Source: Thermoplasmata archaeon (lineage in GTDB: Archaea; Thermoplasmatota; Thermoplasmata; Thermoplasmatales; ARK-15). Taken from it: a DNA stretch of 36,602 bases. The stretch covers positions 1,373-37,974 of the forward strand of contig JAGDXR010000042.1 of NCBI GenBank assembly GCA_023261745.1, written 5' to 3'. The number at the start of each line of letters is the position of its first letter. The stretch's first letter is position 1. Shown one piece after another: positions 3,622-27,947 of this stretch. A program made the position numbers and the translations under genes. The notes under the pieces were generated by a model. That model ran no database searches, had not been told where the DNA came from, and was given only the letters and a program-made list of their open reading frames with translations.

Positions 3622-6600
3622 ATGAAAAACGCAATATATAAAAAGGGGGTCTTTGCAATATTCGTAGTGTCTTTGATGATACTTTCAGCATTCTTTGTAA
3701 CATCCCCTGCAATGGCAATAAAACCACAAACAGTAGGAACAGTGACTTTCAATCCATCAAGCGGAGCATTTCCAGGTCAACTAGTCACATATACATGGTC
3801 GGGATTACCAAGCAATCTGATTGCACCGGTTTATGTTACTGTATTCATAAATGGAGCACCCTATACAACAACACAGGCATCATATTCAGCAGGAACGATC
3901 ACAGGTGAATTCACAATGCCGAATGGCCAGCCGGGAACAACATATTCAGTATATTTAGAATATAAGGACAGTGCAGGAAACTATGGGATATCCTCTACTA
4001 ACAAGGGAAAAATAACTGTAAATCTTTATGCTGCACCTACAGGAGTAGCTGGAACTACATACTATACAGATAATATAATGATGCCAACAACAATAAACGG
4101 TATGGTCAATTATACAGGTCAAAAAAATGTTACAGCAATATTCAATACTGGCTCAAACAATCTGAATGTAATAACCAATTCTACATTTAATGCAAGCAAA
4201 TCAAAAACAACATTATCTTCATTAAACCTGTCTACAATGAATGTGGGCATTCAAACCATTTATGGTGGATTGCAAACATTCAATCAGGTATATAAATATC
4301 AGAACATATCAATGAATTCGACTGCATACAATGGAGGGATTTATGGACTTTCACTGCCCGCCTCAAGTATATTCACGACCACTTTTTCTGTAAGTAATGG
4401 CAAGATAACATCTATAGTTCTTTTGGCATACATAAATCAAACAGTAAATGGCCAACTGGTGTCATTTGAATTAAATGGTAAATATACGAATACCATTTCC
4501 AGCCCTGGGAATTATACAATGCTTGGAACAATCAATGCAATTGAACCAGCAATGTTAAAAAATAACTTCACAGGACAGATGTCTGCAACATATGACATCG
4601 TGTCATTTTACCAGGGCACAAGCTATACATATGTTAATTATACTTTGTCAGTCAATCTAAACGGTAATACATATGATAATATTGTAATTCTAAAAGCACA
4701 GTATGTCAATACAACAACGGTATATGGAAAATCAACCACAACAACTGTAACATCACAGGATAAATTAAATGTGCAGTCTGGATATGAATTCCAGAGCATA
4801 TATGTAAGTTTAAGAGATCCCGGAATATTTGGAACATTCATACAGAATTATGTTAATTCAAAATTGATGACTGGTAATCTGTCATTCTCATTCAAAAATT
4901 ATTCAAAATCAGTACTTTCAGGATCATTTGTATGGAAAGACAACATGACTGGAATAACAATCACATTAAACAATGTAACATTAGCAGGATATCTATATCT
5001 GAATATAACAACAAACAATTATTCACCGGGAGTAGATTACATCAGCCCTGCAGTATGGAATTACACTAGTTTAACCACCGTTTATTTGATTAACAAAACA
5101 ACAGGAATCAACATATCAGGTAAAAATTCATTCACGACACAGTTCAGTACACCTGTTCTGACAGGCGGACAGACCAAGAATGTTTATCAGAACAATACTG
5201 AGGTTACAATCAATACGAACTTCTATGATAAGATTGGATATCCATATTTAGTATCTGCAACTGTTCCATATACACAGATTGAATTAATATATAATAATGA
5301 AATTGCATATGTGAGCCAGAATTTCTCCCTAGTTACAAATCCATACAATCTTACAGTTTCAAACCATAATAATAATACCCTGTATACAAACATTAAAGGA
5401 TTCAACATAACACTAAATAATAATGCAGGTAATTTGTGGATCAATGTAACGAATGAGAATGATACGCTGTACGGATTCAGCAGTAATGGGGACATCAGTT
5501 ATTATCTGACAATCAAGGGATCAGTATCCTCAACTTATGTTAGTGAAATATATAATGCAAATTATACACCATCAAAAGTAACACAAAATATAATTAACAA
5601 ATATGCGGGAAGTTCTACATTATCGTTATCACAGAATTTAACAGTAACCTTTACAATAACTGATATTTATGGATCCATATCTTACGGGTTTATAAAATCT
5701 GGATCATTAAGTGTAGCTTATCCTGCATACAGTGGATCAATCACAATAAACGGTATGGGAACCTCCAGCATTTCTTCATTGGCATTTTCTGCAGCAAGCA
5801 GCAAATCTTCAATAGGTGTAATAACATCTACCTCAGGGTTTAAGAATTCAACAGTTTTAGGATATTACAATACCACATTCAAGGTTGTTAAAGTGATTCC
5901 TGCATTGTTTGGATTATCAACAATGAATGGTATGGCGGTTTTGTGGGCGAATACAACAATCAAAAATGCAACACATTCAATAAAACTGGATCCATTATTC
6001 AAGGGTATGCAGAATGATACGATAATACTGACAATATATTCGTTGAAACCATATTACAATCTAACAAGTTCCGTAAACTCTAATTCGCAGTACCTGAATA
6101 TCACAGGTATTGGATATTCTGGATATATTCAGAACGTTATGATTTCAGGGACAGTTACGATAACTGATATGTATTATGCAATATCAAATAACTATACATA
6201 TACGGGATATGTAAAGGAAATACCATTCTTAAATACAAAAACGCTGACTGTTAATACGTATTTCAATTATACATCAGGGGCGATTCCAACTACAACAAAT
6301 GTATCAAGTTCGAATATTACAGCTATTATAGCTTCGCCCATGGTTAATCTGACACTTACACCTGAATATAACATTTATCTGCAGATAAACATAACAGATC
6401 TGTATAATAACTACTACAATTCCTTCGGGATATATGATGGGATGATGGTGTCAACATATAAAGGTCTGTTTAACTATGGTAATCTTTCAAAGATGACATT
6501 AACAGGAACATCGGCAGGACAAGTAATAATTGAAGCGTCTGTAATGGAATCACAGTTGTTCATTTCTGGAACTTATGGTAATATAACATTTACCACAAAT

Positions 6601-7656
6601 GGAGTAGACGTATATAATGCAGGTCCTATCCCGATTTCAGGTATAACAACAGTAACAAACGGATTCGGCAGCGGTACAGTTTCCGGAGAATTAATGATTA
6701 CCGATTTCATGCCATATATTTATTCAAATGGTGAGTATCTAAGCTCATTTAACGTTACAGGAATGTTATATGTACAGGGATTCTACGCAAATAACACGGC
6801 ATTTGGCATGACAATTATGTTGAATCAGACAGTGGTTATGCAAAACTATTATATGTCAACGACGACACAATCAACTGTGAATTATGTATATAATGGGACA
6901 TATGCTATGGATAATATGGGAATATCACCAAGCTATTCATATGCATTATTGCAGGGTTCTGGAGCATTGGTAATATCAATATCTAACAACACAATTGCCG
7001 AAATTGCAACACAGACAGGTCAGATAGTTAATATCAGCCTTAAACAGCTCAATGCCAAGATTGAAGGAGTCTGGACAACTGAGAATAATACATATGCAGA
7101 AATTAATACAGATTATGGAAACATGATAGCTGCTCTGAATTCACTTAATGCAACAATACAGAATGTAAATAAAAATGGAATCGCAACCATTGAAACCAGC
7201 CTTGGAACAATACAGACAAGCATTAACAATCTTAATTCAAAGATCATTGCATTGAATGGAACTGTAGCCACGATTTCAACATCTATCGGAACAATACAGA
7301 CAAACATTAACAACCTTGGAACAACGATAAATACGATAAATGGCAACGTTAACAATTTAGTTGGCGCATCTGTAACAATTGAAACCATGCTTGGAAATAT
7401 CACCGGGCATGTAATTGCAATACAGAACGGAACAGCAAAAATCGCAACAAACATGGGAGAGGTTACAGTAGCAATGCAGAATGTATCTTCAAATATGAAA
7501 CAGGTTGGAACAGGCGTCAATGACGTGATGATATGGAACATCATAGTAATGATTCTGGTACTGGTAACACTTGTGTTTGTACTGATTGTGATCCTTCAGG
7601 TAAACAGAATAGCAAAGAAACAGTCCCAGCATACAACAGAAGAAGGCAACCAGTAA
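3622..7656 (+). CDS. Large secreted S-layer-like surface protein with C-terminal coiled-coil stalk and TM anchor
   Basis: Signal peptide (VFAIFVVSLMILSAFFVTSPAMA), Ser/Thr/Asn-rich ectodomain with many NxS/T sequons, heptad-like segment (TSLGTIQTSINNLNSKIIALNGTVATISTSIGTIQTNINNLG...), then MIWNIIVMILVLVTLVFVLIVILQ TM and short basic tail. Confidence 0.75.
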   Translation: MKNAIYKKGVFAIFVVSLMILSAFFVTSPAMAIKPQTVGTVTFNPSSGAFPGQLVTYTWSGLPSNLIAPVYVTVFINGAPYTTTQASYSAGTITGEFTMPNGQPGTTYSVYLEYKDSAGNYGISSTNKGKITVNLYAAPTGVAGTTYYTDNIMMPTTINGMVNYTGQKNVTAIFNTGSNNLNVITNSTFNASKSKTTLSSLNLSTMNVGIQTIYGGLQTFNQVYKYQNISMNSTAYNGGIYGLSLPASSIFTTTFSVSNGKITSIVLLAYINQTVNGQLVSFELNGKYTNTISSPGNYTMLGTINAIEPAMLKNNFTGQMSATYDIVSFYQGTSYTYVNYTLSVNLNGNTYDNIVILKAQYVNTTTVYGKSTTTTVTSQDKLNVQSGYEFQSIYVSLRDPGIFGTFIQNYVNSKLMTGNLSFSFKNYSKSVLSGSFVWKDNMTGITITLNNVTLAGYLYLNITTNNYSPGVDYISPAVWNYTSLTTVYLINKTTGINISGKNSFTTQFSTPVLTGGQTKNVYQNNTEVTINTNFYDKIGYPYLVSATVPYTQIELIYNNEIAYVSQNFSLVTNPYNLTVSNHNNNTLYTNIKGFNITLNNNAGNLWINVTNENDTLYGFSSNGDISYYLTIKGSVSSTYVSEIYNANYTPSKVTQNIINKYAGSSTLSLSQNLTVTFTITDIYGSISYGFIKSGSLSVAYPAYSGSITINGMGTSSISSLAFSAASSKSSIGVITSTSGFKNSTVLGYYNTTFKVVKVIPALFGLSTMNGMAVLWANTTIKNATHSIKLDPLFKGMQNDTIILTIYSLKPYYNLTSSVNSNSQYLNITGIGYSGYIQNVMISGTVTITDMYYAISNNYTYTGYVKEIPFLNTKTLTVNTYFNYTSGAIPTTTNVSSSNITAIIASPMVNLTLTPEYNIYLQINITDLYNNYYNSFGIYDGMMVSTYKGLFNYGNLSKMTLTGTSAGQVIIEASVMESQLFISGTYGNITFTTNGVDVYNAGPIPISGITTVTNGFGSGTVSGELMITDFMPYIYSNGEYLSSFNVTGMLYVQGFYANNTAFGMTIMLNQTVVMQNYYMSTTTQSTVNYVYNGTYAMDNMGISPSYSYALLQGSGALVISISNNTIAEIATQTGQIVNISLKQLNAKIEGVWTTENNTYAEINTDYGNMIAALNSLNATIQNVNKNGIATIETSLGTIQTSINNLNSKIIALNGTVATISTSIGTIQTNINNLGTTINTINGNVNNLVGASVTIETMLGNITGHVIAIQNGTAKIATNMGEVTVAMQNVSSNMKQVGTGVNDVMIWNIIVMILVLVTLVFVLIVILQVNRIAKKQSQHTTEEGNQ
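7204..7313 (+). repeat. 84-nt (28-aa, four-heptad) internal repeat in the stalk
   Basis: ggaacaatacagacaa[g/a]cattaacaa at 7204 and 7288, offset 84 nt; protein GTIQTSINNL / GTIQTNINNL. Confidence 0.7.
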
Positions 7657-7781: not shown

Positions 7782-10700
7782 ATGGCAAAACCTCAAATAA
7801 AAAAGTATTTAGCGATATTGGTAGTATCTCTTTTTCTGGTCTCGGCATTTGCAGTGATATCGTCTGCCGCAACTAACAATAAGTATTATACGGTGGAAAA
7901 TCAGGCAGTTAAGGGATATCACTTTGTTTCAGAAATGCAATCTAGCAGCTATGTTACAGGTGAAATATACATACCTTTAAAGAATGCTGATTTATTAAGT
8001 TTCTATGTACAGCAGGTATCCGATCCAAATTCCCCAATGTATGAGCATTATCTAAAAGCTTCACAAATAGAAAATCTCTTTGAAAATAAAGCATTGTTTG
8101 ATTCAACTCTCAATTATCTAAAAAGTAACAATATACAAATAGTAGGAACAGCAATGAATTCAATCATTATTTTCAGGGCAACAACTGCTCAGGTAAAAAA
8201 TGATCTTGGTATGAATATCGGGATTTATTCAAATGGATCGAGTAAATATTATTATTCATATGGAACACCTAAAATCCCGAATGTAATGATATTTGCATCC
8301 AATATATCATCTCTTCTTTTCAATAAGCCATCAACATTCGTTTCTTCACAGGATGTAAAGGAAATGAAAAACAGGTTTATGCAGGTAAATCCAGTATTTT
8401 CCATAGAACCATATTACACAACCTGGTTGCAGAATGTATATAATGCCACAGGATTATATTCCAAAGGATATATGGGTCAGGGACAGACAATAGGAATTCT
8501 TGATTTTGCCGGAGATCCGTATGTTCAGCAGGCTCTTGAAGAATATGACATGATGTATGGATTACCAAATCCACCGAATTTTAACATAGTTCCAATAGGC
8601 CCATACAACCCTATGGTTGGCGTCATAACAGGATGGCAGGGAGAAATTGAGATGGATGTAGAGGCATCACATACAATGGCACCAATGGCCAACATAACGT
8701 TATTCATTGCAAATTATGATTTAAATCTTGGGCCAGTAATAGCATTCATTGATCAATATGCCATGAACCATACTGTTGATTCATTATCCCAGAGTTTTGG
8801 AATTTCAGAATCATATTTTGCCAATTTTCCAGGCCCAGCTGTAGTATATAATTTACAGATGCCTGATATATATTATGAAATCGGATCAATTATGGGAATT
8901 ACATTTTCTGCTTCAACCGGTGATACTGGAGGATCCGGAGACGGAGCGGGACCTCTGGGTGCAACTGAATATCCCTCTATATCTCCGTATGTCACGGCAA
9001 TTGGTGGATCAACCGTATTTGTAACCGTAAATTCATCATTTGGAGTTACAGGTTATGAGAATACTGCCTGGTCAGGTTATGGATTTGTTGCTCCTCATGT
9101 GAATTATGGAGGAGGTACCGGAGGAATATCATCTTTAGAGGCAAGACCCTGGTATCAGAAGAATATGAATACAAATACAATAAGTCCTTTACCGGTGGGA
9201 TATACAAATGGTAGAATGGTTCCTGATATTTCATTAGAAGCAAATGTATTCCCAGGAATGGTCTTTGTGTTCTGGTATAATGGTGCATTTATACCATCGA
9301 TTTCTGGAGGTACCAGTGAGGCCAGTCCACTGTTTGCTGGGTTGATTGTACTGGCATCCCAATATACAGAGTCAATGCATATGGGAAGAGGCATGGGTCT
9401 GGTTAACCCACTGATATACAAATTTGGATTGAACAGCACGATATTTAAGAAAGTATTCGAGCCCATGCAATTTGGATATACAATACCATGGTTTGTTACA
9501 GGTGGATATAACCTGGCAACCGGTTTTGGTTCAATCAACATTGGAATGTTTGCTCATTATGCTTCTAAAGTTTATTCAAGTATGGCAAACCCATTGACAA
9601 TAAATGCAACGATATTAAATCCAACAAATACCACAGGAATGAACGAATTTATAGGAGGGTATAATATCAAAATTGCTGCAGATATAACCTTCAACAACAT
9701 AAATGTAACAACTGGATCATTCTATGCATATATAGAGGACATATACAGTAATTATAATCCAGTAAAACTCATTTACAATTCAACTTTAAAAGAATGGCTT
9801 GGGGAAATTACCGTACCTAAAAATGCAGGTGGAATGGGTTATCTCATAATCAATGGTACATACATGAATTATTCTACATCAGAATTCATGCAGGAATTCT
9901 TTGGTTACATCATATATTTCCTCTATCCAGCAGATTCACCTTACATGATGTCAGTATCACAGATTCCAGCACTGGTATATTATCTGAATGGAACGTTAGT
10001 TAACAATAAAACAATCTATTACTCAGTATTGATGTATTCGATATTCAACAATACTTACTTTAATGTTTACAATGGCTATTCAGTAATAACCAATGGTTCA
10101 GTATATTATGACATTTATGATCCAAGTCTATCCAGTATTAATGGAGTAGGAATTCTGGAGACGATGGGTGGCATGGGAATGTTTCCATTCTTCAATGGTG
10201 ATGATCTCCAGGGTTCTCTCATACTTTCACCTGAAGTTATAGAACCTTCTACGGTAACACCTGGTTCCGACATATTTGTGGAGGGTACAGTATTACCTCC
10301 TATGAATCTATATTATATGGATCCTATGGCTTATGCAGATTCTTATTATTTCTCTTCAATAGAATTTTCACTTGTTTCATTTACAGGTAAAGTATACAGC
10401 AGCATAGTTCTTCCAGCAAATACATTAGGACAGCTTTCAGTTCCAGTAAATGTAGCACCGGGTTACTATGTGGTTGAAATAAACAGCTCTTATAATTCTT
10501 ATTCTCTTGGTACGTGGATAAATGGATCGTTCTTTGGTGAAATTTATGTGGCTCCGGAAAACCTCACACCTCAGCTTTCAATTTCACCAAGTGTAGTTTA
10601 CGAAGGTCAGAGTCCATTGATCACCGCAAGCATATATGCAGGAAAAACGCCAGTCGAATTTGGAATGTTCTCCCTGACGATCTATCCGGAATCTCTAAAC

Positions 10701-11603
10701 TATACCTATTATACAATAACAAACGTTGAAAACATCCCACTCTATTTCGACACTGATTACAACATATGGATTGCACCCCCAGTGTATACCACGATGCCAT
10801 CTGAATCTTCATCAAACGTTCTTTCAGCAATATTGAATGGTCCGTATTACTGGCCTGGCAAATATTTTGTACTTCCACAGGGGATATCAGTGAATGGTAT
10901 ACCCACACCACCCACACAGCAGTTTGCATCATCTCTCATATTGCTGCAGGGTCCTGAACTGATGATCACCTCACCATCGAATTCAAATGCTCCTATTTAC
11001 AATTCTTCAACGGTGACAATATCCGGATTAACCACAGGAAGTTTAGTGCAGGTTAACTATCCGGGTGGGGTCATGAATGCTACTCCTGTAAATGGAACAT
11101 TTACAGTATCCATACCGCTTCAGAATGGTGAAAATCTCATTGAAGTAACTGCATATGATACAAATGGATATTCAAATACGCAGTATGTATCAGTACTTTA
11201 TTTACCGCAGATAATGAAAATTGAAACGCAGATGCAAAAGATAAATGAAAGCCTGAATTACATAAATCAGGAGATGCATGTAGCCGGAGCAAATATGAAT
11301 GCACTGAAACAGAATTTAACGAATCTTGCAAATAATCTCACAACCCTGGCAAATGATGTTAGCATACTCAACCAGACATATGCGGGAAAACTGACACAGT
11401 TGGCGCAGGGATTGCAGACACTCGCAGGCAAATTAAATGAAACAAAGAGCGCAATTGAAACCGTAGCCTCAAAGGCAAATGGAGGAGTAAATACATCCGT
11501 TGATATTGGAATAGTAGCATTGATATTTGCACTGATAGCTATTGCCATATCTGCACTGAATATGTTCAGAAAGAAGGGTGGAAATAACAAACAAAATTCT
11601 TAA
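7782..11603 (+). CDS. Membrane-anchored peptidase S53 (sedolisin / pro-kumamolisin type) with long C-terminal region and coiled-coil stalk
   Basis: Signal peptide; pro-kumamolisin-like propeptide (DPNSPMYEHYLKASQIENLF); GQGQTIGILDFAGDP; E/D pair in GEIEMDVEASHTMAP; STGDTGGSGDG; SGGTSEASPLFAGL (SGTSxxxP-type Ser motif); C-terminal coiled coil and TM (IGIVALIFALIAIAISALNMFRKK). SD aggagg upstream. Confidence 0.9.
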   Translation: MAKPQIKKYLAILVVSLFLVSAFAVISSAATNNKYYTVENQAVKGYHFVSEMQSSSYVTGEIYIPLKNADLLSFYVQQVSDPNSPMYEHYLKASQIENLFENKALFDSTLNYLKSNNIQIVGTAMNSIIIFRATTAQVKNDLGMNIGIYSNGSSKYYYSYGTPKIPNVMIFASNISSLLFNKPSTFVSSQDVKEMKNRFMQVNPVFSIEPYYTTWLQNVYNATGLYSKGYMGQGQTIGILDFAGDPYVQQALEEYDMMYGLPNPPNFNIVPIGPYNPMVGVITGWQGEIEMDVEASHTMAPMANITLFIANYDLNLGPVIAFIDQYAMNHTVDSLSQSFGISESYFANFPGPAVVYNLQMPDIYYEIGSIMGITFSASTGDTGGSGDGAGPLGATEYPSISPYVTAIGGSTVFVTVNSSFGVTGYENTAWSGYGFVAPHVNYGGGTGGISSLEARPWYQKNMNTNTISPLPVGYTNGRMVPDISLEANVFPGMVFVFWYNGAFIPSISGGTSEASPLFAGLIVLASQYTESMHMGRGMGLVNPLIYKFGLNSTIFKKVFEPMQFGYTIPWFVTGGYNLATGFGSINIGMFAHYASKVYSSMANPLTINATILNPTNTTGMNEFIGGYNIKIAADITFNNINVTTGSFYAYIEDIYSNYNPVKLIYNSTLKEWLGEITVPKNAGGMGYLIINGTYMNYSTSEFMQEFFGYIIYFLYPADSPYMMSVSQIPALVYYLNGTLVNNKTIYYSVLMYSIFNNTYFNVYNGYSVITNGSVYYDIYDPSLSSINGVGILETMGGMGMFPFFNGDDLQGSLILSPEVIEPSTVTPGSDIFVEGTVLPPMNLYYMDPMAYADSYYFSSIEFSLVSFTGKVYSSIVLPANTLGQLSVPVNVAPGYYVVEINSSYNSYSLGTWINGSFFGEIYVAPENLTPQLSISPSVVYEGQSPLITASIYAGKTPVEFGMFSLTIYPESLNYTYYTITNVENIPLYFDTDYNIWIAPPVYTTMPSESSSNVLSAILNGPYYWPGKYFVLPQGISVNGIPTPPTQQFASSLILLQGPELMITSPSNSNAPIYNSSTVTISGLTTGSLVQVNYPGGVMNATPVNGTFTVSIPLQNGENLIEVTAYDTNGYSNTQYVSVLYLPQIMKIETQMQKINESLNYINQEMHVAGANMNALKQNLTNLANNLTTLANDVSILNQTYAGKLTQLAQGLQTLAGKLNETKSAIETVASKANGGVNTSVDIGIVALIFALIAIAISALNMFRKKGGNNKQNS

Positions 11604-16785: not shown

Positions 16786-16826
16786 AGAATAAGTTTTTTA
16801 TGTAACCATAAGAGGTGATATATGTT

Positions 16827-17552
16827 ATGCAGCCTTCACAGATGGCTTATGATAGGGCAATTACAGTATTTTCTCCTGAGGGAAGACTTTATCAGGTTGA
16901 GTATGCAAGGGAAGCAGTTAAAATGGGTTCAACTACAATAGGTATCAAGTTCAAGGATGGTGTGATTCTTGTTATAGATAAAAAGGTAAGGAGCAGGTTA
17001 ATTGAACCGAAATCGATTGAGAAGATTTACGTTATTGATGATCACATAGGTGCGGCCTCTTCGGGCCTTATGGCCGATGCAAGGACTCTTGTTGACTTTG
17101 CAAGGATAAATGCACAGATTGAAAAGATAACTTACGGTGAAAAGACAAGTCTTGAATCACTCGTTAAAAAGATAAGCGATTACATTCAGCAGTATACACA
17201 GTATGGGGGAGTAAGGCCCTTTGGTACATCACTGCTCATAGGCGGTATAGATGACAATGAGATTGGACTTTATGAAACTGAGCCAAGCGGTGCATATACT
17301 GGATACAAGGCAACATGCATTGGAAGGGGCAGGGAAACGGTAATATCATTATTTGAAAAGGAATATCAGGACAATCTTGACATGGAAGGTGCAATAATGC
17401 TTGCCCTGAAAGGCATAAAATCTGTACTTGAAGAACCCAACCAGCCCCTAGTTGTTGAAATTGGAATGATCAAGCGTGGTGAAAGTTTCAGGATTTTATC
17501 ACAAGAAGAGATTGATGAATACATAAAAAAGTTCAATTCCGTGAATAAATGA
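16827..17552 (+). CDS. psmA: Proteasome alpha subunit
   Basis: MQPSQMAYDRAITVFSPEGRLYQVEYAREAVKMGSTTIGIKF...VRSRLIEP. ATG at 16827 with gaggtgat upstream preferred over the listed GTG at 16815. Confidence 0.97.
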   Translation: MQPSQMAYDRAITVFSPEGRLYQVEYAREAVKMGSTTIGIKFKDGVILVIDKKVRSRLIEPKSIEKIYVIDDHIGAASSGLMADARTLVDFARINAQIEKITYGEKTSLESLVKKISDYIQQYTQYGGVRPFGTSLLIGGIDDNEIGLYETEPSGAYTGYKATCIGRGRETVISLFEKEYQDNLDMEGAIMLALKGIKSVLEEPNQPLVVEIGMIKRGESFRILSQEEIDEYIKKFNSVNK

Positions 17553-17561
17553 GGGTCTTAT

Positions 17562-18260
17562 ATGGTAAGGCTGGAGGATGCTGTAGTAGCCAGGTATGAA
17601 TATAAGGGGCATCATTTTGAAATACTCATAGATCCGAATATCATAGATGCAGTTAAGGATGGTAAAATAAAGAACATTGTTGATTACATGGTAATAGATC
17701 AGGTTTTTAAAGATGCAAGGAAAGGAGACAAGATTGGTGAAGAGGTTCTCAAGGATGTTTTTGGCACAACTGATATAAATGAGATTGCGAGGACCATAAT
17801 TTCTAAGGGACAGGTACAGCTTACCACGGAACAGAGAAGAAAGATGCTTGAGGATAAAAAGAAGCAGATAGTTTCGGAAATAGCCAAGAATGCAATAAAT
17901 CCACAGACCAATACTCCGCATCCTCCTCAAAGGATTGAAAAGGCGATTGAAGAAGCAAAGGTGCATATAGATCCTTTTAAAAGTGTCCAGGAACAGATCC
18001 CGGGTGTAATCAAAGCTATAAGCAGATTAATACCCATCAAGATTGAAAAATTGAAGATAGAGATAAAGGTAAGCGGTGAAGCATACGGAAAAATATATCA
18101 GGACATAATTCGAATGGGAAATCTTGTAAGGGAGGAATGGCTGGACAACGGAAGCTGGGTTGGAGTTGTTGAAATCCCGGCAGGCATGCAGACTGAATTT
18201 TTTGACATGCTGAATAAAAAACTCCATGGAAATCTGGAAAGCAGGATTCTAAAAGGGTGA
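17562..18260 (+). CDS. SBDS/Sdo1 ribosome maturation factor
   Basis: [25 protein letters not shown]...[24 protein letters not shown]...[17 protein letters not shown]...[21 protein letters not shown]. Confidence 0.95.
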
Positions 18261-18265
18261 AAAAT

Positions 18266-18931
18266 ATGGAAAACAGCAATATTCGAGAGATAGTATTGCC
18301 TGGTGATATGGTTGACCTTCAGGGCAACAAACCGGGCACTGGAATTTATATGGAAGATGGAAAGGCGTATTCTGAAATACTTGGTGTAAAGACGGTAAGG
18401 TCAGGTTATGTGAATATAATTCCCCTAACGGGGAGGTATCATCCACAGAAAGGAGACAAGGTCATAGGAAAGGTAATTGATGTTCTTCCATCGAACTGGG
18501 TTCTGGACATCAATGCGCCCTATCTGGCACCCCTTCATGTTAATGAGACGTCATGGAAGATTGACTTCGGTGATACGGGAAAGTTCCTTAACATAGGGGA
18601 TACTGTTCTGGCCAAGATAATGAGCGTAAATGAAGTCAAGCAGGTATGGCTGACCATGAAGGAGCAGGGTCTGAGGAAACTTGAGGGTGGACACATCATA
18701 TCAGTATCCCCGACCAAGGTTCCAAGGATCATAGGAAAGGAGGGGTCCATGATAAAAATGTTGAAGGAGACAACAAACACAAAGATATACATCGGACAGA
18801 ACGGAGTTATATGGATTGACGGTGAAACAGATAACATTCTTAAGGTTGTTGGCGCAATAAGGATGATCGAAAGGGAAGCCCATACAATTGGGTTAACCGA
18901 CAGGATAAAGGAATATCTCAATAAAAGTTAA
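18266..18931 (+). CDS. rrp4: Exosome complex RNA-binding protein Rrp4 (S1 + KH)
   Basis: VLPGDMVD, GKVIDVLPSNWVLDINAPYLAPLHV, KVPRIIGKEGSMIKMLKETTNTKIYIGQNGVIWIDG. ATG 18266 likely, ORF track starts at GTG 18257. Confidence 0.93.
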   Translation: MENSNIREIVLPGDMVDLQGNKPGTGIYMEDGKAYSEILGVKTVRSGYVNIIPLTGRYHPQKGDKVIGKVIDVLPSNWVLDINAPYLAPLHVNETSWKIDFGDTGKFLNIGDTVLAKIMSVNEVKQVWLTMKEQGLRKLEGGHIISVSPTKVPRIIGKEGSMIKMLKETTNTKIYIGQNGVIWIDGETDNILKVVGAIRMIEREAHTIGLTDRIKEYLNKS

Positions 18932-18943
18932 AGGTGGTATAAA

Positions 18944-19690
18944 ATGTCTGGTATGAAGAGTGATGTGAAACTTATTGATGAATCTGGAAAGAGGATTGAC
19001 GGAAGACTTTTTAATGAAATGAGGCCAATAAAGATTGAAGCAGGAATACTCGAAAGAGCGGATGGGTCGGCGTACATAGAATGGGGTAATAATAAAATAA
19101 TTGCTGCTGTATTTGGGCCAAGGGAAATATATCCCAAGCACATTCAGGATCCGAGCAAGGCCGTCCTGAGAGCGAGGTATAACATGGCAGCATTCAGTGT
19201 AGATGAAAGGAAAAAGCCCGGACCGGACAGGAGGTCTGTGGAACTATCTCTGGTCATTTCAAATGCGCTGAGTTCAGTTGTATTTCTTGAGCAGTATCCA
19301 AGGACTGCCATAGATGTGTTCATTGAAGTTCTTCAGGCGGATGCCGGGACAAGGATAGCTGGTTTGACCGCTGCGTCAGTTGCACTGGCCGATGCCGGAA
19401 TACCCATGAAGGACCTCATTGCCGGTTGTGCAGTAGGAAAAGTTGAAAACACGATCGTTCTTGATCTTAACAAGGATGAGGATAATTATGGTCAGGCCGA
19501 TATGCCCGTGGCAATAATACCAAGGACAAAGGAGATAGTTCTTTTCCAGATGGATGGGGACATGGATTATCAGGAAATAAAAAATGGACTTAACATGGCA
19601 CTTGATGCATCAATGAAGGTATATGAGATTGAAAAGGAAGCACTGAAGAATAAATACATAAAGCTTGCGGGAGGCGATTCAGATGAGTAA
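18944..19690 (+). CDS. rrp41: Exosome complex exonuclease Rrp41
   Basis: RNase PH fold: KRIDGRLFNEMRPIKIEAGILERADGSAYIEWGNNKIIAAVFGPRE, PGPDRRSVELSLVI. Confidence 0.95.
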   Translation: MSGMKSDVKLIDESGKRIDGRLFNEMRPIKIEAGILERADGSAYIEWGNNKIIAAVFGPREIYPKHIQDPSKAVLRARYNMAAFSVDERKKPGPDRRSVELSLVISNALSSVVFLEQYPRTAIDVFIEVLQADAGTRIAGLTAASVALADAGIPMKDLIAGCAVGKVENTIVLDLNKDEDNYGQADMPVAIIPRTKEIVLFQMDGDMDYQEIKNGLNMALDASMKVYEIEKEALKNKYIKLAGGDSDE

Positions 19691-20477
19691 GTTTACCGAG
19701 AATGTGGTTTCTGAAATCACAAAGGATTATATTAAAAAGCTTTTAGAAAAGGGCACAAGGCTCGATGGCAGGACGGCGGATGAATACAGAAAAATTGAAG
19801 TTCAGAGAAATTTCATACCAAGAGCTGATGGTTCAGCACTCGTAAAAATTGGAAAAACTCAGGTTCTTGTAGGTGTAAAGGTTGAAAAGGGGCCACCGTT
19901 TCCAGACACACCGAATCTTGGAATACTGGCAACCAATGCCGAACTTGTTCCACTGGCCAGTCCAACATTTGAACCGGGTCCACCGGGAGAGGAGGCCATA
20001 GAACTGGCAAGGGTTGTTGACAGGGGGATAAGGGAAGGAAAGGTAATAGATCTGGAAAAACTCGTAATAAAGGAAAACGAACTCGTATGGGTTGTATTTG
20101 CGGATATTCATGTATTGGATTATGATGGAAACCTGTTTGACGCATCATCTCTTGCAACCATGATAGCATTGCTTAATACAAAGGTTCCTGCCAAAAGGAA
20201 TGATCTGGGTGAAGATTTCAACCTGCCCATAAATCACATAGCCGTAGCAAATACATTCGTAAAGATTGGAGACAATATTGTTGTTGATCCAAATCTTGAT
20301 GAGGAGAACATTGCAACGGCAAGGATAACAGTATCAACGACCGAAGATGGCAAAGTGCACGCAATACAGAAAGGCCTTGAAGGATCATTTACATATGAGG
20401 AAATACTGAATACAATAGATTCAGCAAAGAGGATAGGAAAAGATATAAGGGAGAACATCATATCTGGGGTGGATTGA
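19683..20477 (+). CDS. rrp42: Exosome complex component Rrp42
   Basis: RLDGRTADEYRKIEVQRNFIPRADGSALVKIGKTQVLVGVKVEKGPPFPDTPNLGIL. ATG 19683 (MSKFTENVV) overlaps the rrp41 stop. Confidence 0.95.
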   Translation: MSKFTENVVSEITKDYIKKLLEKGTRLDGRTADEYRKIEVQRNFIPRADGSALVKIGKTQVLVGVKVEKGPPFPDTPNLGILATNAELVPLASPTFEPGPPGEEAIELARVVDRGIREGKVIDLEKLVIKENELVWVVFADIHVLDYDGNLFDASSLATMIALLNTKVPAKRNDLGEDFNLPINHIAVANTFVKIGDNIVVDPNLDEENIATARITVSTTEDGKVHAIQKGLEGSFTYEEILNTIDSAKRIGKDIRENIISGVD

Positions 20478-20478
20478 T

Positions 20479-20739
20479 ATGTCTAGGAGGACAAAGAAGG
20501 TTGGCATTGCCGGGAGATTCGGGCCCAGGTATGGAGTTGCCCCCAAAAAGCAGTGGAAGGACATCATGGAACTGAGAATTCAGTATTATGAATGTCCCAG
20601 CTGTGGGCACAGGACATTGAGAAGGGTCAGCACATCCATCTGGGAATGCAGGAGATGCGGGTATACCTTTGCCGGAGGAGCTTACATTCCTTTTGTAAAG
20701 AAAGAAATATCAAAGGAGGGGGAAAATGTCAAACTTTAG
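20479..20739 (+). CDS. rpl37ae: Ribosomal protein L37Ae (eL43)
   Basis: MSRRTKKVGIAGRFGPRYGVAPKKQW, CPSCGHRTLRRVSTSIWECRRCGYTFAGGAY zinc ribbon. Confidence 0.95.
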   Translation: MSRRTKKVGIAGRFGPRYGVAPKKQWKDIMELRIQYYECPSCGHRTLRRVSTSIWECRRCGYTFAGGAYIPFVKKEISKEGENVKL

Positions 20740-20943: not shown

Positions 20944-23900
20944 ATGGTGAAAGTCTGTATGCGCATACAAATGGATGAAAGTGCAAGAAAGGCCTTGTTA
21001 TTATCGGTGGTACTGGCAGTTATAGTTATCCTGGGATTTTTCCTCAGGACGTATTATGTGCTTGGTGTTTCCGTACAGAGTAATTTTGGTGTGTCAGGCG
21101 GTTCAGACAGTTTTTACCATGAAAGGGTAATACAATATATTGTATCCACAGGCCATCAGCTCATAAGGGATCCTTTATTAAACTATCCGGTTGGGGCCAA
21201 CGATCCCAGACCTCCATTTTTTGAATGGTCTGTGGTTTCAATGGCATACATGTATTTACCATTCGTAAAGGGTATGGGGGATGCTCTTGGATATTCCCTG
21301 ATTTTAATTTCCGCAATATTTGGTGGTCTCATAGCAATACCGACATACCTTATGGGTGCAGAGGCGTTTAATAAGAGAGTTGGCATGATATCTGCATTGC
21401 TCATAGCAACAAGCGCATCCAACATGATGAGGAGTATGGCATCATGGGGAGGATATGATGTTACAATCCTGTTTTTTGCAATGTGGGCATGGTATTTCTT
21501 CCTCAAGGCAGTAAAAACGGTTAAATATGACGTCTGGGTGGAAAATTATTTTGACCGGAAATCGTTGTTGAGGGGAATAAGGGCTTACTTTTCAAACAAC
21601 GAAAGGTCACTTCTATATTCTGCTCTTGCTGGCATAAGTTTTGGGACAATCGTTCTTATGTGGCAGGGTTTTGCATATGTTGAGGTAATCATACTGCTCT
21701 ATGTTGTTTTTCAGGTTCTGTATAACAGAATAAGAAACACGTCATCATTCCATCTTTTCTGGATAACAGTCTTTCTTGGTTTATTTGCATATCCCCTGGC
21801 CATACCATTCTATTATGTTGATGTTACCAATATATTCACAAATACATATTTCAGCACACCTCTGTATATCTGGCTTTTCGTTCTGATTTTTATTTCAATT
21901 GTTGAAATAACTGACAGGATACCATGGACATTGACATTCACAATAATAATATTATTCATAGCAGGAGTTCTTCTTGCCGGAATATTATTTTTCCCGAGTA
22001 TAATGAGGTATGTTTATACAGGAGAAGGTTATTTTGTCAAAACACCAATATATGCAACCATTGCAGAAGCCCAATCACCCACCATGGGAGAAGTTGTCAT
22101 GAGTGTTGGAGTTGGGGTATTCTTCCTGTGGGTAGCCGGCCTGATTTTCATGATATGGGAGATGAGAAAGAAAAGGGCAGAATATTACATATATTTCATA
22201 ATATTCTCACTGATTTCCGTTTACATGGCATTTGCAGCGGCCAGGTTCATATATGAAGCCTCACCTGCATTTATAATTCCGGCGGCATACATGCTTGATA
22301 AGATAGTTGAAAGGTTGAAAATATATGAAATGGCTTCAAGCATTAAGGAACTCTCATTTTCATGGAGAACACTTTTAAGGAGAGGCATAAAATGGGGAAA
22401 GGTTTCAGCCATAATACTGATTGCATTTCTTGTCATTCTGCCCAACATGTGGGCTGCTGTGGATTCGGCAATACCGTTCAATACCAAGGCTCAATATGAT
22501 CAACAGGTATACAATATGATGCCATCATTCTTGAGGCCACAGAATTACACTCCACCATATTATTTGGGGGCATATGGCGTGGAAATAGATAACAATCAGA
22601 CTGATCCCTGGGTAATGGCACTGCAATGGTTTTCACAGCAGGACACTAACTATCCTCCAGCACAGAGGCCAGGTTTCATATCATGGTGGGATTACGGTTT
22701 TCAGGAAATAGAGCAGGGTCAACATCCTACCGTGGCAGACAACTTCCAGTATGGTTATCAGATAGCAGGTCAGGCACTGATGGCACAGAATGAATCCCAG
22801 GAAATATCGTTTTACATTGCAAGATTGCTGGATGCAACGCTATTCAACAGTACTTACGGATCTGGGGTACAGCATATACTAAATGAATATCTCGGTGAAA
22901 ATGAAACCGGAAAAATAATCCAGTATTATACGGTTTTGATGAAAAATCCAGAGCCTTATATAAAAGAAATAATATCAAATCCGAAATATTACGGTAATTT
23001 TTCAGCAAATCTATCCAATGTAAATGCAAAATATGTAATGATAATGGGAGACCTTTCTAACAAATATAATGAAAACACATTAATCAATCTATATGTATCT
23101 TTGGAGAGGTATACCGGTCTGGGAATAGATTATTTTGCAACGGATTACAGGCTGTTTCCATTATCCGGTATGGATACCGGTATATTTTATGCTCCTGCAT
23201 ATCTCTCTGGCAGGGTGACGGAAAACATCAATGGAGAATTCATACCGGTTGACTTTTACAATATTGTAGCCGTCGATGTGAACGGGAATATGTATCCCCT
23301 TAACCAGATTCCCGCCAATGCTCAGATAGTAAATTATGAAATTCAATACAAGCCAATGTTCTTCAATACAATGCTATACAGGGCATATGTAGGATATTCA
23401 GGAATCAATCTGGGGATGGGCCCACAGATACCAGGACTGTCATCAAATATGTCATATTATCCTGTAATGCCGGCATGGAATTTAACGCACTTTGAAGTCG
23501 TTTATTCAATGGCTTTCTGGAACCCTTATAAGGATTATCAGAATCATACAGGTGCATGGAGGCCGATTCCACTCCAGGAAGCATACTATCTGCAGAAGCA
23601 GGGAAATGGAACAGTGGTATTGTTTCCCTCAGCAAGGGATCTGCTGCAGCAGAATGTTATAATTTTGAAATTTTATCCTGGAGCAATAATAGAGGGAAGA
23701 ATATCACTGCCAAATGGTCAACCTTTATCGCATGTCCTTGTTACACTGGATGACCAGTACGGAATACCGCATACGTATGTATATACAAATTCTCAGGGTT
23801 ATTATAAATTATATGGAGTAGCAGGAAACGATACGATTATTGTATCAACCGATGGAGGGTTTAACAGTCTTTACCTTACAGAAAAAACCATACTGACATC

Positions 23901-26900
23901 CAGGCACATTTACATATCAAATGATCAGGCTCTGAGGATTGAGACAGGTCTAAATGAATATGGCATGCCAAATTATTATGTTCCTGAAAATTTCATTGTA
24001 AATGAATCAAATATAAATGGCATGGTGTTTTATCAGTTCAATAAAAATGCAACATTTTCATATGGAGATATTCCACTTGGAAATTCAACAATATATCTCG
24101 TTAACAGTACATATGGGTTAAACTACTCATCAACTGTAAAAAATACAGGTTATTATTCCATAAATAATATAATACCTCATTATTATAACATATACATAAA
24201 AGTAAACAATACATTCAGTTACATAGGAAATGTAACCATGACACCGGGAGAAAATCTCACAAAGGATATTCCGATAAAACCGGGTGTCATCCAGGGACTG
24301 GTTCTCTATCCTAACGGCACGGCTGTAAAAAATCCAGTACTCAAATTATCAAATGGTATCGTTGTCAGGGGTACCGTTTTTGGTGAATATACCATATATA
24401 CACCTCCGGGCACGTTTGTCCTTTCAGTGATAAAGAATGGATATTATGCAAAGCCCATAAAGGTATCAATACTCAACTGGGGAATGAACACAACGGAAGA
24501 TATAACACTGAGTGCTTCATACAATGTTACTTTAAAGGTATTTTTGAACAATCAGGCCGTTGAGGGTGCCATGGTCAGATTGATAGATGAATTCAATTTC
24601 CAGAATGAATTCATATTTTATTCGAATTCCAATGGCATAATATATGGCCAGCTACCTTATGGATATTATTCCATTTATGCTCTATACAGCGAAAATGGGA
24701 ATACCTATTCATACATTGGAAACCTGACCGCAAATAATACTGGCATGATTAATATCAATTTGAGGATTTCCTATCCCGTATACGGATATGTTTATGCAGG
24801 CAAATTAAGGGAAGGAAATGTTGAAGTGATGTTTTTAAACGGCTATAATTTTATAAGACTATATACCAACAGTTCAGGATATTACTACGTTTACCTTCCA
24901 CAGGGTATATACAATGTGGGAACATATTATACAAACAGTTCAGAATATTATTCATATTATGGCCAGGTTACGGTGACTGCACCAATTCAAACCGATCTAT
25001 ATATGTCAAAGGCATTTTCAGTAAACGGTTCCCTGATATCCGGAATGCTCAGGATGAAAATGGGTGTAGTATTCCTCAAAGGGCCTGAAGGTGTAATGTA
25101 TGAAACATACGTTTCACCGGATGGGGATTTCTATTTCTATCCCAATTTTAATAATTACAAAATATATGCATTTATACCGGGTTATTATGTTAATAACATA
25201 TCACAGATGAAGAATTTCATACAGGTCAATCTCAACCCCCAGCCTGTAAGATTATACGGCCACCTAAATTATTCAGAATATTACAATGGAACTGTAAAAA
25301 TAATATTCGAGAGCGGAAAGAATATGTATTACATTGAAACGGACAACAGATCATATTCAATTTATCTGCCTCCGGGATCATACAATGTATCTGTGGAAGC
25401 CAGTGGCCTCATGGCAACGCCAGATGTGACATTCATAGGTATAAATAACGGTGAAGGATTCTTAAACCAGAATATATACATCGATCTCAGGGCAAGGGTA
25501 ACAATCCTCCCCTATTCAGATAACATATTCTGGTTCTATCCTAACGGTTCCATAGCAAGTTATGGAAACAACGTATCATTATCCCCAGGATATTACACAT
25601 ACTATATTTACAGTGGAAGTCTCGGTTACATTGGATCAATATTCGTGAATTCATCCATCATATTCCAGACTGAAATGGTTAAATCTTATATTGCCAATAT
25701 AAATATTCAGAATTATACCGGAACAGTTAAACTGTTTATACAGTACAATGGCCATATCATATCAAAGCCAGTCATGAACAGGGTATCCCTTGTATTACCT
25801 GAAGGATTTTACCATTTCTACATAAACGAAATAATAAACGGTATGATTCCAGTATCCATTTCAGCATCTTCATATGCATTTGTATACATGAATACAAATG
25901 TTTATCTTCATATACAGTCATCACCGTACTTTGTGAGACTTTCAGGTAAAATAAATTCGGGTGGTTATTACACGAATATCATGCTTTATGGAAAATACAA
26001 TTATTCATTTGGAGGTTATTTAAATTATAATATTTCTGTATATCCAGGCAATTATGTGATATATGCATATACGTTATCCGGAATCCCTGAATCCTATATT
26101 GGATCCCTATCCGTTTTAAATTCGGAAGTCTTCAATATCAATCTTACAAAATCAAAAATTTATTATTTAAATCCCGTCGTACCCGGACATTCTTTCATGG
26201 GAACATTTAACATTTACAACGGTACATTCAATTTAACCCTGAATTATATCGGTTTGCCGGTTGAAATGGTATTAAAACCAGGTAATTACAGTTTATATGG
26301 AATATACAACACAACAGAATACGGTGTAGATGTAAAATATATAATTAATACCTCATATTCATTTGGCAATGAGGAATACATCAATCTTATATTCACAAGG
26401 GAAAATGTCAATTCCATAGAGATGAACGTTCTGACACCCAGGATCAATGCAGCAGTTGGTCAGAAACTTGTATATTATGTGGAAATTGTCAACAACGGAA
26501 ATCTTCCTGAGAATGTTACCCTTGAAAGCGTTCAGATGTGGAATGTGACATTCAATCAGACCAGGCTATTCATCATGCCATCTGAATCGAGGATTGTAAA
26601 GGCCTATTATACGGTTCAGAATACAGATACGCTCGGTCTAAATTACGTACAGATCAGGGCCTTATATGCAAACGACCTTGTTGCAGGAGCTTCTCTTCTC
26701 GTCAACGTTTCTCCATACCATTATGTATTCGTAAAATTCGGCAATCCATACGTAAATGGAAATGAAATAATCTTAAACTTCACGGTATACAATCATGGCA
26801 ATGTCAACGAAAATGTTTCATTCAGCATTCTCAATTCCATTGAATTGGATTCACTCGGATGGCATTCAAGGATCTTCAGACCTTCAAGCAACAATACATA

Positions 26901-27198
26901 TGCGGAGGTCTACACATATTCAGACACGAATATTACAGTGATATTAATTCCATACAGGTCCACATTTGCACCCATGATAAATATAGGAATATCCCTGAAT
27001 TATTCTAACATTCAGTATACAGCATATACAAACCTGACGGTACCTTCACTGGGCAATGTGTACGAGAAAATAGAAACCGGTAATATCACATACAATATAC
27101 CGAACTATAATATGGAAATAGAATATATTCTTATTGCATCCGCCGTGCTATTTTTCATATCTTTAACATACATTATGTTCAGGAGGGTTAGAAAATGA
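20944..27198 (+). CDS. aglB: Stt3/AglB-type oligosaccharyltransferase with giant C-terminal extracellular beta-repeat extension
   Basis: Multi-TM N-terminus with GGSDSFYHERVIQYI, NDPRPPFFEW and WWDYGFQEIEQGQ (WWDYG catalytic-site motif). After ~aa 910, CarboxypepD_reg-like GAIIEGRISLPNGQPLSHVLVTLDDQYGIPHTYVYTNSQGYYKLYGV and many LPxGxYxxY-like repeats; C-terminal TM IEYILIASAVLFFISLTYIMFRRVRK. Continuous ORF. Confidence 0.9.
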   Translation: MVKVCMRIQMDESARKALLLSVVLAVIVILGFFLRTYYVLGVSVQSNFGVSGGSDSFYHERVIQYIVSTGHQLIRDPLLNYPVGANDPRPPFFEWSVVSMAYMYLPFVKGMGDALGYSLILISAIFGGLIAIPTYLMGAEAFNKRVGMISALLIATSASNMMRSMASWGGYDVTILFFAMWAWYFFLKAVKTVKYDVWVENYFDRKSLLRGIRAYFSNNERSLLYSALAGISFGTIVLMWQGFAYVEVIILLYVVFQVLYNRIRNTSSFHLFWITVFLGLFAYPLAIPFYYVDVTNIFTNTYFSTPLYIWLFVLIFISIVEITDRIPWTLTFTIIILFIAGVLLAGILFFPSIMRYVYTGEGYFVKTPIYATIAEAQSPTMGEVVMSVGVGVFFLWVAGLIFMIWEMRKKRAEYYIYFIIFSLISVYMAFAAARFIYEASPAFIIPAAYMLDKIVERLKIYEMASSIKELSFSWRTLLRRGIKWGKVSAIILIAFLVILPNMWAAVDSAIPFNTKAQYDQQVYNMMPSFLRPQNYTPPYYLGAYGVEIDNNQTDPWVMALQWFSQQDTNYPPAQRPGFISWWDYGFQEIEQGQHPTVADNFQYGYQIAGQALMAQNESQEISFYIARLLDATLFNSTYGSGVQHILNEYLGENETGKIIQYYTVLMKNPEPYIKEIISNPKYYGNFSANLSNVNAKYVMIMGDLSNKYNENTLINLYVSLERYTGLGIDYFATDYRLFPLSGMDTGIFYAPAYLSGRVTENINGEFIPVDFYNIVAVDVNGNMYPLNQIPANAQIVNYEIQYKPMFFNTMLYRAYVGYSGINLGMGPQIPGLSSNMSYYPVMPAWNLTHFEVVYSMAFWNPYKDYQNHTGAWRPIPLQEAYYLQKQGNGTVVLFPSARDLLQQNVIILKFYPGAIIEGRISLPNGQPLSHVLVTLDDQYGIPHTYVYTNSQGYYKLYGVAGNDTIIVSTDGGFNSLYLTEKTILTSRHIYISNDQALRIETGLNEYGMPNYYVPENFIVNESNINGMVFYQFNKNATFSYGDIPLGNSTIYLVNSTYGLNYSSTVKNTGYYSINNIIPHYYNIYIKVNNTFSYIGNVTMTPGENLTKDIPIKPGVIQGLVLYPNGTAVKNPVLKLSNGIVVRGTVFGEYTIYTPPGTFVLSVIKNGYYAKPIKVSILNWGMNTTEDITLSASYNVTLKVFLNNQAVEGAMVRLIDEFNFQNEFIFYSNSNGIIYGQLPYGYYSIYALYSENGNTYSYIGNLTANNTGMININLRISYPVYGYVYAGKLREGNVEVMFLNGYNFIRLYTNSSGYYYVYLPQGIYNVGTYYTNSSEYYSYYGQVTVTAPIQTDLYMSKAFSVNGSLISGMLRMKMGVVFLKGPEGVMYETYVSPDGDFYFYPNFNNYKIYAFIPGYYVNNISQMKNFIQVNLNPQPVRLYGHLNYSEYYNGTVKIIFESGKNMYYIETDNRSYSIYLPPGSYNVSVEASGLMATPDVTFIGINNGEGFLNQNIYIDLRARVTILPYSDNIFWFYPNGSIASYGNNVSLSPGYYTYYIYSGSLGYIGSIFVNSSIIFQTEMVKSYIANINIQNYTGTVKLFIQYNGHIISKPVMNRVSLVLPEGFYHFYINEIINGMIPVSISASSYAFVYMNTNVYLHIQSSPYFVRLSGKINSGGYYTNIMLYGKYNYSFGGYLNYNISVYPGNYVIYAYTLSGIPESYIGSLSVLNSEVFNINLTKSKIYYLNPVVPGHSFMGTFNIYNGTFNLTLNYIGLPVEMVLKPGNYSLYGIYNTTEYGVDVKYIINTSYSFGNEEYINLIFTRENVNSIEMNVLTPRINAAVGQKLVYYVEIVNNGNLPENVTLESVQMWNVTFNQTRLFIMPSESRIVKAYYTVQNTDTLGLNYVQIRALYANDLVAGASLLVNVSPYHYVFVKFGNPYVNGNEIILNFTVYNHGNVNENVSFSILNSIELDSLGWHSRIFRPSSNNTYAEVYTYSDTNITVILIPYRSTFAPMINIGISLNYSNIQYTAYTNLTVPSLGNVYEKIETGNITYNIPNYNMEIEYILIASAVLFFISLTYIMFRRVRK

Positions 27199-27947
27199 AG
27201 AAATTCATTTTCCTTTTATTTGTAATTATGCTATTATTCTCATCATCATTTTCCCTCTCATCACCCGTGACTGTCAATGTTTCTGGTCCAAGTATGGTGG
27301 GAGCTAATACAACACATGAATATTCGATTTCGGTTAACGGTTATTTCTATAAATTTGGATATCACCTTTTACTCACAGGGGAGAATCTCAGCGGACTGAA
27401 ACAGGTTGAATACACCGGAATATCATATAATGGTCACTTCAAAATAAATATTACATTTCCCTCCATGCCACAGACCGTGATTCTTGTAATCATGGGCTTT
27501 GGGTACTATGAAAATTCCACGATCGCATATTCACAGATAGTTAAATATACCATAAATGTTGTTAAATCAATACCTTTCATTGTAAAAATAACAAACCCAT
27601 CATCCATGTGGATATATAAGGTCAATATTTCATATTATCTAAACGGTCAATTCATAGGTAACCAGACTTTAAATTCAATAGGGCCAAACCAGCAGGAAAA
27701 TATAACGTACTATTATGTTGGTACTATAAATTCTGGCACGAATTATCTGACAGTAAAACTTAATTCAAGTGTTCTTAAATTTTCAAATTATTCAAGTGTT
27801 TATACAATTGGATTCTATTATGGACAGCCCCCTGATTATTCATGGGCATGGTACATTTTTGCGGTTGTTGTCATAGTTATAATATTTTTCATTTACATGG
27901 CAGAGTTTTCAAGAAAAAGAAGGCCAAGACCAAAATGGAAAAAATAA
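27195..27947 (+). CDS. Secreted/membrane-anchored beta-sandwich protein coupled to aglB, function unknown
   Basis: Signal peptide FIFLLFVIMLLFSSSFSLSS, N-glycosylation sequons, C-terminal TM WAWYIFAVVVIVIIFFIYMAEF; ATGA overlap with the aglB stop. Confidence 0.75.
   Translation: MKKFIFLLFVIMLLFSSSFSLSSPVTVNVSGPSMVGANTTHEYSISVNGYFYKFGYHLLLTGENLSGLKQVEYTGISYNGHFKINITFPSMPQTVILVIMGFGYYENSTIAYSQIVKYTINVVKSIPFIVKITNPSSMWIYKVNISYYLNGQFIGNQTLNSIGPNQQENITYYYVGTINSGTNYLTVKLNSSVLKFSNYSSVYTIGFYYGQPPDYSWAWYIFAVVVIVIIFFIYMAEFSRKRRPRPKWKK

Follow-up and report, generated by a model that had tools for sequence, protein, structure and literature searches.

We describe a giant oligosaccharyltransferase (OST) gene in a 36,602-nucleotide (nt) stretch of DNA, hereafter the window, from a Thermoplasmata archaeon (GCA_023261745.1, contig JAGDXR010000042.1, positions 1,373 to 37,974). 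Its AglB catalytic region is fused, within one open reading frame (ORF), to a long string of beta-domains that ends in a second transmembrane (TM) helix, and the gene is followed directly by that of a small type I membrane protein, here called the partner. We show that this architecture is conserved across the class, that the two genes are coupled, that the partner resembles the C-terminal module of the AglB extension, and that both extension and partner persist where the catalytic motifs do not. We consider it somewhat probable that the OST of Thermoplasmatota, comprising AglB fused to about fourteen beta-domains plus a type I partner, serves as a scaffold for surface-protein biogenesis.

Architecture of the giant AglB and its partner

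The features of the locus are as follows.

20944..27198, + strand: giant AglB ORF, 2084 amino acids (aa), ATG start; catalytic OST region, beta-repeat extension, C-terminal TM helix
20944..23655, + strand: catalytic AglB/STT3 part, residues 1-904 (Pfam STT3, weak AglB_core-like match, alignment)
21097..21108, + strand: GGSD, first acidic (DXD-type) motif, residues 52-55 (alignment of relatives)
22057..22068, + strand: TIAE, the TIXE motif of loop EL5, residues 372-375 (alignment; motif role from PMC8342417)
22684..22698, + strand: WWDYG Ser/Thr-binding motif, residues 581-585 (alignment; DNA codon-pattern match G000:C34:24056, which is window position 22684)
23674..27111, + strand: extension, residues 911-2056, 1,146 aa (Pfam, AlphaFold 2, sequon counts)
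23689..23856, + strand: first CarboxypepD_reg domain, residues 916-971 (Pfam, 1e-14)
26428..27060, + strand: two C-terminal CARDB/NEW3-like domains, about residues 1829-2039, partner-like (hhalign profile comparison)
27109..27192, + strand: C-terminal TM helix, residues 2056-2083, with short basic tail (AlphaFold 2 helix; hydropathy peak 2061-2079)
27195..27947, + strand: partner gene, 250 aa, type I membrane protein; signal helix, two immunoglobulin (Ig)-like domains (the second CARDB-like), TM 216-241, basic tail

The catalytic part is multi-TM to about residue 500 and continues as an extracellular catalytic globular domain. An earlier note on this DNA had reported the motifs GGSDSFYH, NDPRPPFF, and WWDYG in this ORF, and all three are present. 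Pfam STT3 (PF02516) covers residues 53-466 (E 6e-13; 49.5 bits against a cut-off of 24.5), and a weak AglB_core-like match lies at residues 572-618. The archaeosortase-A-associated model TIGR04154 (archaeo_STT3) scores 183.7 bits on the protein, below its cut-off of 450. The key residues of GGSD, TIAE, and WWDYG are invariant across 24 aligned relatives, with D55 of GGSD invariant among those that are catalytically intact; a stretch after WWDYG (residues 722-756) is also conserved among aligned relatives, with neither a DK nor an MI motif recognized with certainty. On these motifs, the ORF is an AglB/STT3 oligosaccharyltransferase, for which sugar transfer is predicted.

The multi-TM, GT-C-type N-terminus, the GGSD/TIAE/WWDYG motifs, and the extracellular globular domain are shared with archaeal AglB (A. 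fulgidus AglB-L) and with STT3/PglB. The A. fulgidus protein, however, ends with its globular domain at about residue 868 (PMC8342417), whereas the giant AglB adds about 1,150 residues, a second membrane anchor, and a co-encoded partner. The expectation that AglB proteins are usually well below 2084 aa fits A. fulgidus but fails for Thermoplasmatota.

The extension is built of repeated beta-domains. The catalytic part had been said to end near nt 23680 (residue ~912), in agreement with the Pfam CarboxypepD_reg match that starts at residue 916. This first domain is better conserved than any other part of the extension and has invariant G/A/T/D/Q columns. From motif spacing, which gives an approximate count, we recognize about twelve transthyretin (TTR)/CarboxypepD_reg-like units followed by two CARDB/NEW3-like units; the repeat type is thus the one proposed earlier, at a number slightly above the proposed about ten. 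An AlphaFold 2 model of residues 900-2084, made with 56 aligned sequences, has a mean predicted local distance difference test (pLDDT) score of 87.7 and consists of an all-beta string with no break in it, then a linker of low confidence and a TM helix at about 2056-2083. Domain search and model thus bear out both the CarboxypepD_reg/TTR-like and CARDB assignments and the second C-terminal TM helix. In a Pfam scan of 38 of the 56 rows of the extension alignment, CarboxypepD_reg matches every member (38/38, best 5e-67) and NOMO_5th matches 25/38 (best 1e-17). Among solved structures, NOMO2 is the top profile match, spanning several TTR units (E 3.1e-23).

The partner gene overlaps the 3' end of aglB by 4 base pairs (bp), an overlap that is usual among loci. 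Once start-codon choice is allowed for, a partner homologue lies directly downstream in 40/41 loci (39/40 plus the window), L068 being the one locus that lacks it. BLAST clustering alone places the partner downstream in 36 loci, and the apparent absences in six loci are mostly start-codon artefacts. Among GTDB loci with at least 1 kilobase (kb) of downstream sequence, the partner adjoins aglB in 52/53. Nearly all partners follow a common plan of signal helix, ectodomain of about 200 aa, C-terminal TM helix, and basic tail, and the AlphaFold 2 model of the window partner (pLDDT 94.1) has two Ig-like domains. The partner profile aligns to the last two domains and TM helix of the AglB extension (hhalign probability 95.5, E 1.4e-8). 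This suggests that the partner and the AglB C-terminal module are copies of one duplicated module.

A TRAP or OST48 origin for the partner was considered and rejected: TRAP_beta matches only 2/53 members, at best with E 0.0054, whereas CARDB matches 53/53. Neither TRAP nor OST48 appears among the listed solved-structure matches of the partner, by sequence or by fold.

In genome G154, an AglB homologue at the beginning of a long contig (C1:150-1595) and a partner close to its other end (C1:1512135-1512908) lie on the same strand, an arrangement that fits adjacency across the circular junction.

Distribution and apparent loss of catalytic motifs

The giant AglB is widespread. The gene is present in 57/61 genomes of the order, in a frame that is nearly always 2030-2127 aa where no contig end truncates it, and 238/250 class genomes have a match, with listed frames mostly of 2050-2300 aa. 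In all 41 complete genes (40 loci plus the window), drawn from more than 20 families of the class, it is a single ORF of 2034-2221 aa with a C-terminal TM helix and basic tail, and alignment columns are highly occupied throughout the extension. A GTDB scan (best 80 matches) yielded 56 complete genes, each one ORF, from species that partly overlap the 41-locus set; these relatives include Cuniculiplasma, DHVE2, I-plasma, Thermoplasma, and Methanomassiliicoccales. Across the phylum, AglB frames reach 3324 aa, and the shortest uncut ones are about 1150-1430. The distribution across order, class, and phylum thus makes the giant form a lineage trait rather than an oddity of the source genome. Outside the class, an adjacent partner occurs in three genomes of the phylum (families f37 and f52).

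That this architecture might already be described as standard had been raised as a caveat. It is indeed standard across the class, but we found no account in the open-access literature searched of the giant AglB, its partner, an AglB with carboxypeptidase-regulatory domains, or WWDYG loss in Methanomassiliicoccales. Passages on AglB in papers on Thermoplasmatales (PMC5155288, PMC3750248) name the protein with no remark there on its size or partner. One of these concerns Cuniculiplasma, a cultured relative, which is said there to encode AglB and to be without an S-layer (PMC5155288).

Ten genomes of family f11, presumably Methanomethylophilaceae, encode AglB homologues that have apparently lost catalysis. 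These proteins are 1818-2544 aa long and still end in a TM helix and basic tail, and the partner is kept in all ten genomes. They align to the catalytic-domain profile along most of it (E 1e-83 to 1e-139), and most of them also match the extension profile, L168 weakly so. WWDYG is absent from all ten, as is the conserved Arg of NPRPP; most lack the Glu of TIAE, and seven lack D55. No second STT3 was detected in these genomes by PF02516, a model that misses even some giants, so that this result is weak alone. The WWDYG codon pattern occurs in 6/102 f11 genomes, all within two genera. In our own tally by family, 202/218 sampled class genomes outside f11 contain codons for WWDYG, vs 1/32 sampled f11 genomes. 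In the tree, the degenerate f11 proteins group in a single clade with full support, and an intact f11 member (G170) is its sister.

A second apparent loss lies in another family, f32, among intact relatives. The AglB homologue of G198 reads GGYD, NPIPP, TISL, and WNGYG, and this genome keeps both a 2116-aa protein and the partner. Since two lineages without the catalytic motifs keep both extension and partner, these parts probably have a function separable from catalysis. Neither the partner nor the catalytically degenerate relatives figured in the earlier note.

Several further variants were seen. Frames of about 3,200 aa, a still larger version of AglB, occur in G335, G346, G348, and others (families f47 and f55), with no adjacent partner in the one such locus checked (L181). 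Seven genomes (G089, G105, G091, G099, G139, G107, and G113, from families f14, f17, and f26) have neither an AglB match nor a WWDYG pattern. Their same-family relatives have both, pointing to incompleteness or further losses. Two to four WWDYG-coding sites in G266, G074, G084, G069, and others suggest that families f15 and f20 have AglB in more than one copy.

Sequons and the role of the extension

The extension is rich in N-glycosylation sequons. The window protein carries 45 N-x-S/T sequons in its extension; shuffled sequences give 19.3 +/- 3.9 and the reversed motif gives 17, so this density is not due to chance. Over the 41 intact loci, the forward/reverse ratio of N-x-S/T is 2.06 (bootstrap 1.89-2.22), compared with 1.32 (1.15-1.49) in the WWDYG-less f11 proteins, intervals that are optimistic in that the bootstrap ignores relatedness. 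The ratio of N-x-T to T-x-N is 2.56 in intact loci and 1.11 in WWDYG-less f11 proteins. Thus, the sequons are probably used, and their use is probably weaker where the active site is lost. Density itself is ordinary: the extension has 3.9 sequons per 100 aa, other exported proteins of the window have 2.4-7.2, and cytosolic ones are near chance. Among relatives of constant architecture, counts range from 9 to 82. The earlier description of the extension as sequon-dense therefore holds as an excess over chance but not as an unusual density.

In the reading that we favor, the far end of the extracellular beta-string is anchored by the second TM helix, and the partner, which looks like a copy of the two final string domains and the TM helix, would be made together with AglB and join it in one complex. 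String and partner could then form a cradle, tethered to the membrane, above the site where secreted and membrane proteins emerge. There it would hold the new chains while they are glycosylated and fold, in a chaperone-like or scaffold manner. Selection would keep this scaffold role, not sugar transfer alone. Where the active site is intact, the extension would probably also be N-glycosylated, by its own AglB or by a neighboring copy. The action would be like that of NOMO/TRAP-type translocon companions or accessory subunits of OST in eukaryotes, except that the parts lie both within AglB and beside it. It is also possible, although we hold this more tentatively, that the scaffold role is primary, that methanogen lineages lost sugar transfer on at least two occasions but retained the complex, and that the resulting pseudo-oligosaccharyltransferases act as NOMO-like translocon companions.

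The eukaryotic analogies are of plan. NOMO, a component of the BOS complex of the endoplasmic reticulum (ER) multipass translocon (its location in the ER translocon is described in PMC7505659), likewise strings TTR-like beta-sandwiches together and closes with a single TM helix at its C-terminus, and a NOMO-like role is suggested by this analogy. However, NOMO is a separate protein with the partners Nicalin and TMEM147, whereas the giant AglB chain is fused to the OST in all loci read; NOMO is a stand-alone type I protein with an N-terminal signal peptide, and the AglB extension is not. Because TTR-like units are common, and because the general CarboxypepD_reg model is not outscored on the extension by NOMO-specific models, we read this as similarity of plan and not as membership. 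The partner, in turn, resembles TRAP alpha/beta, OST48, and ribophorin in being a small type I protein with an Ig-like ectodomain and a basic cytosolic tail, encoded beside the OST, but differs from them in having two Ig-like domains of CARDB type.

Several points weigh against the scaffold reading. Complex formation and a location at SecYEG are steps that we infer. Foldseek searches of the extension return generic beta-strings only (alpha-2-macroglobulin/complement and ciliary HYDIN-type), and a fold search of the partner returns tandem Ig pairs only. Since CarboxypepD_reg/TTR units are modular and occur commonly, the NOMO match may be convergent. In some families of the phylum, giant AglBs have no adjacent partner by the same adjacency test, and the AglB-partner pair is therefore not universal. 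The catalytic losses are read from sequence, and GGSD is retained in three of the f11 proteins. Moreover, retention of the extension and partner could reflect a structural role in the envelope.

In such an envelope role, extension and partner would be structural surface proteins that replace an S-layer, with the catalytic part of AglB a mere anchor. An all-beta string with an anchor at either end, an Ig-like partner of type I, and the retention of both without catalytic motifs would suit this, and Thermoplasmatales are mostly without S-layers according to a passage in PMC5155288. We nevertheless regard it as unlikely, since a single-copy gene fused to a membrane enzyme would hardly be abundant enough for a coat and the degenerate homologues still keep the catalytic-domain fold, which a pure coat would not need. 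We give a little less credence still to a substrate-presentation arm that only gathers acceptor sequons near the active site, the WWDYG-less homologues being decaying relics or altered-site transferases. That most of the class has the extension fused to an AglB with intact catalytic motifs agrees with this idea, as does the sequon excess as a sign of glycosylation in use. Relics, however, would be expected to break up, and the WWDYG-less proteins are full length and accompanied by the partner in ten f11 genomes; WWDYG is absent from most f11 genera and likewise from the second lineage, and the TIAE and Arg positions are degenerate as well.

The earlier note had proposed that the enzyme may be its own substrate, a glycan shield, or tethered to the S-layer. 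In such a reading, the extension would carry N-glycans, either to protect the enzyme in acid or to tie it to a surface layer. The sequon excess in the window protein and the twofold bias among intact relatives speak for glycosylation of the extension, and to that extent the proposal survives. As the reason for the extension, however, a shield or self-substrate is improbable: sequons fall to as few as nine in relatives of the same architecture, the extension is kept after apparent loss of catalytic residues, and, because the density equals that of other exported proteins here, a special shield is unsupported. We therefore rejected it as the main role. Finally, the giant ORF might have been an assembly fusion or frameshift joining two neighboring genes. 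Nothing was found in favor of this, and it is ruled out by dozens of independent assemblies, some of them single-contig chromosomes, that all show one ORF here; relatives carry one gene throughout.

A giant OST that occurs across the class with a tightly coupled membrane partner would extend accessory subunits of archaeal OST beyond the Asgards. Archaeal OST has been described as single-subunit (PMC8342417); homologues of OST accessory subunits are mentioned only for some Asgards, in a passage of PMC8993221, and TRAP-like proteins for Heimdallarchaeota in a passage of PMC11186639. Lineages that keep the scaffold after apparent loss of the active site offer a natural experiment separating glycosylation from the machine's other work. 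It is available in methanogens of gut and rumen whose genomes are complete (ISO4-H5) and in Thermoplasmatales that can be cultured. The role of the non-catalytic parts of OST would thereby become directly testable in Archaea.

Neighboring genes in the window

Other genes of the window encode large proteins with hydrophobic C-terminal segments. Two of these, at 99-2903 (934 aa) and 3622-7656 (1344 aa), look exported and have a strong sequon excess (z 10.1 and 4.3, respectively) and no confident Pfam family. A third, at 7782-11603, is a 1273-aa protein with a pro-kumamolisin activation domain, a glucodextranase-B-type domain, and again a hydrophobic C-terminal segment. Upstream of aglB, a same-strand gene run (16815-20739) starts with a proteasome subunit, and its later genes resemble the archaeal exosome/SBDS cluster.

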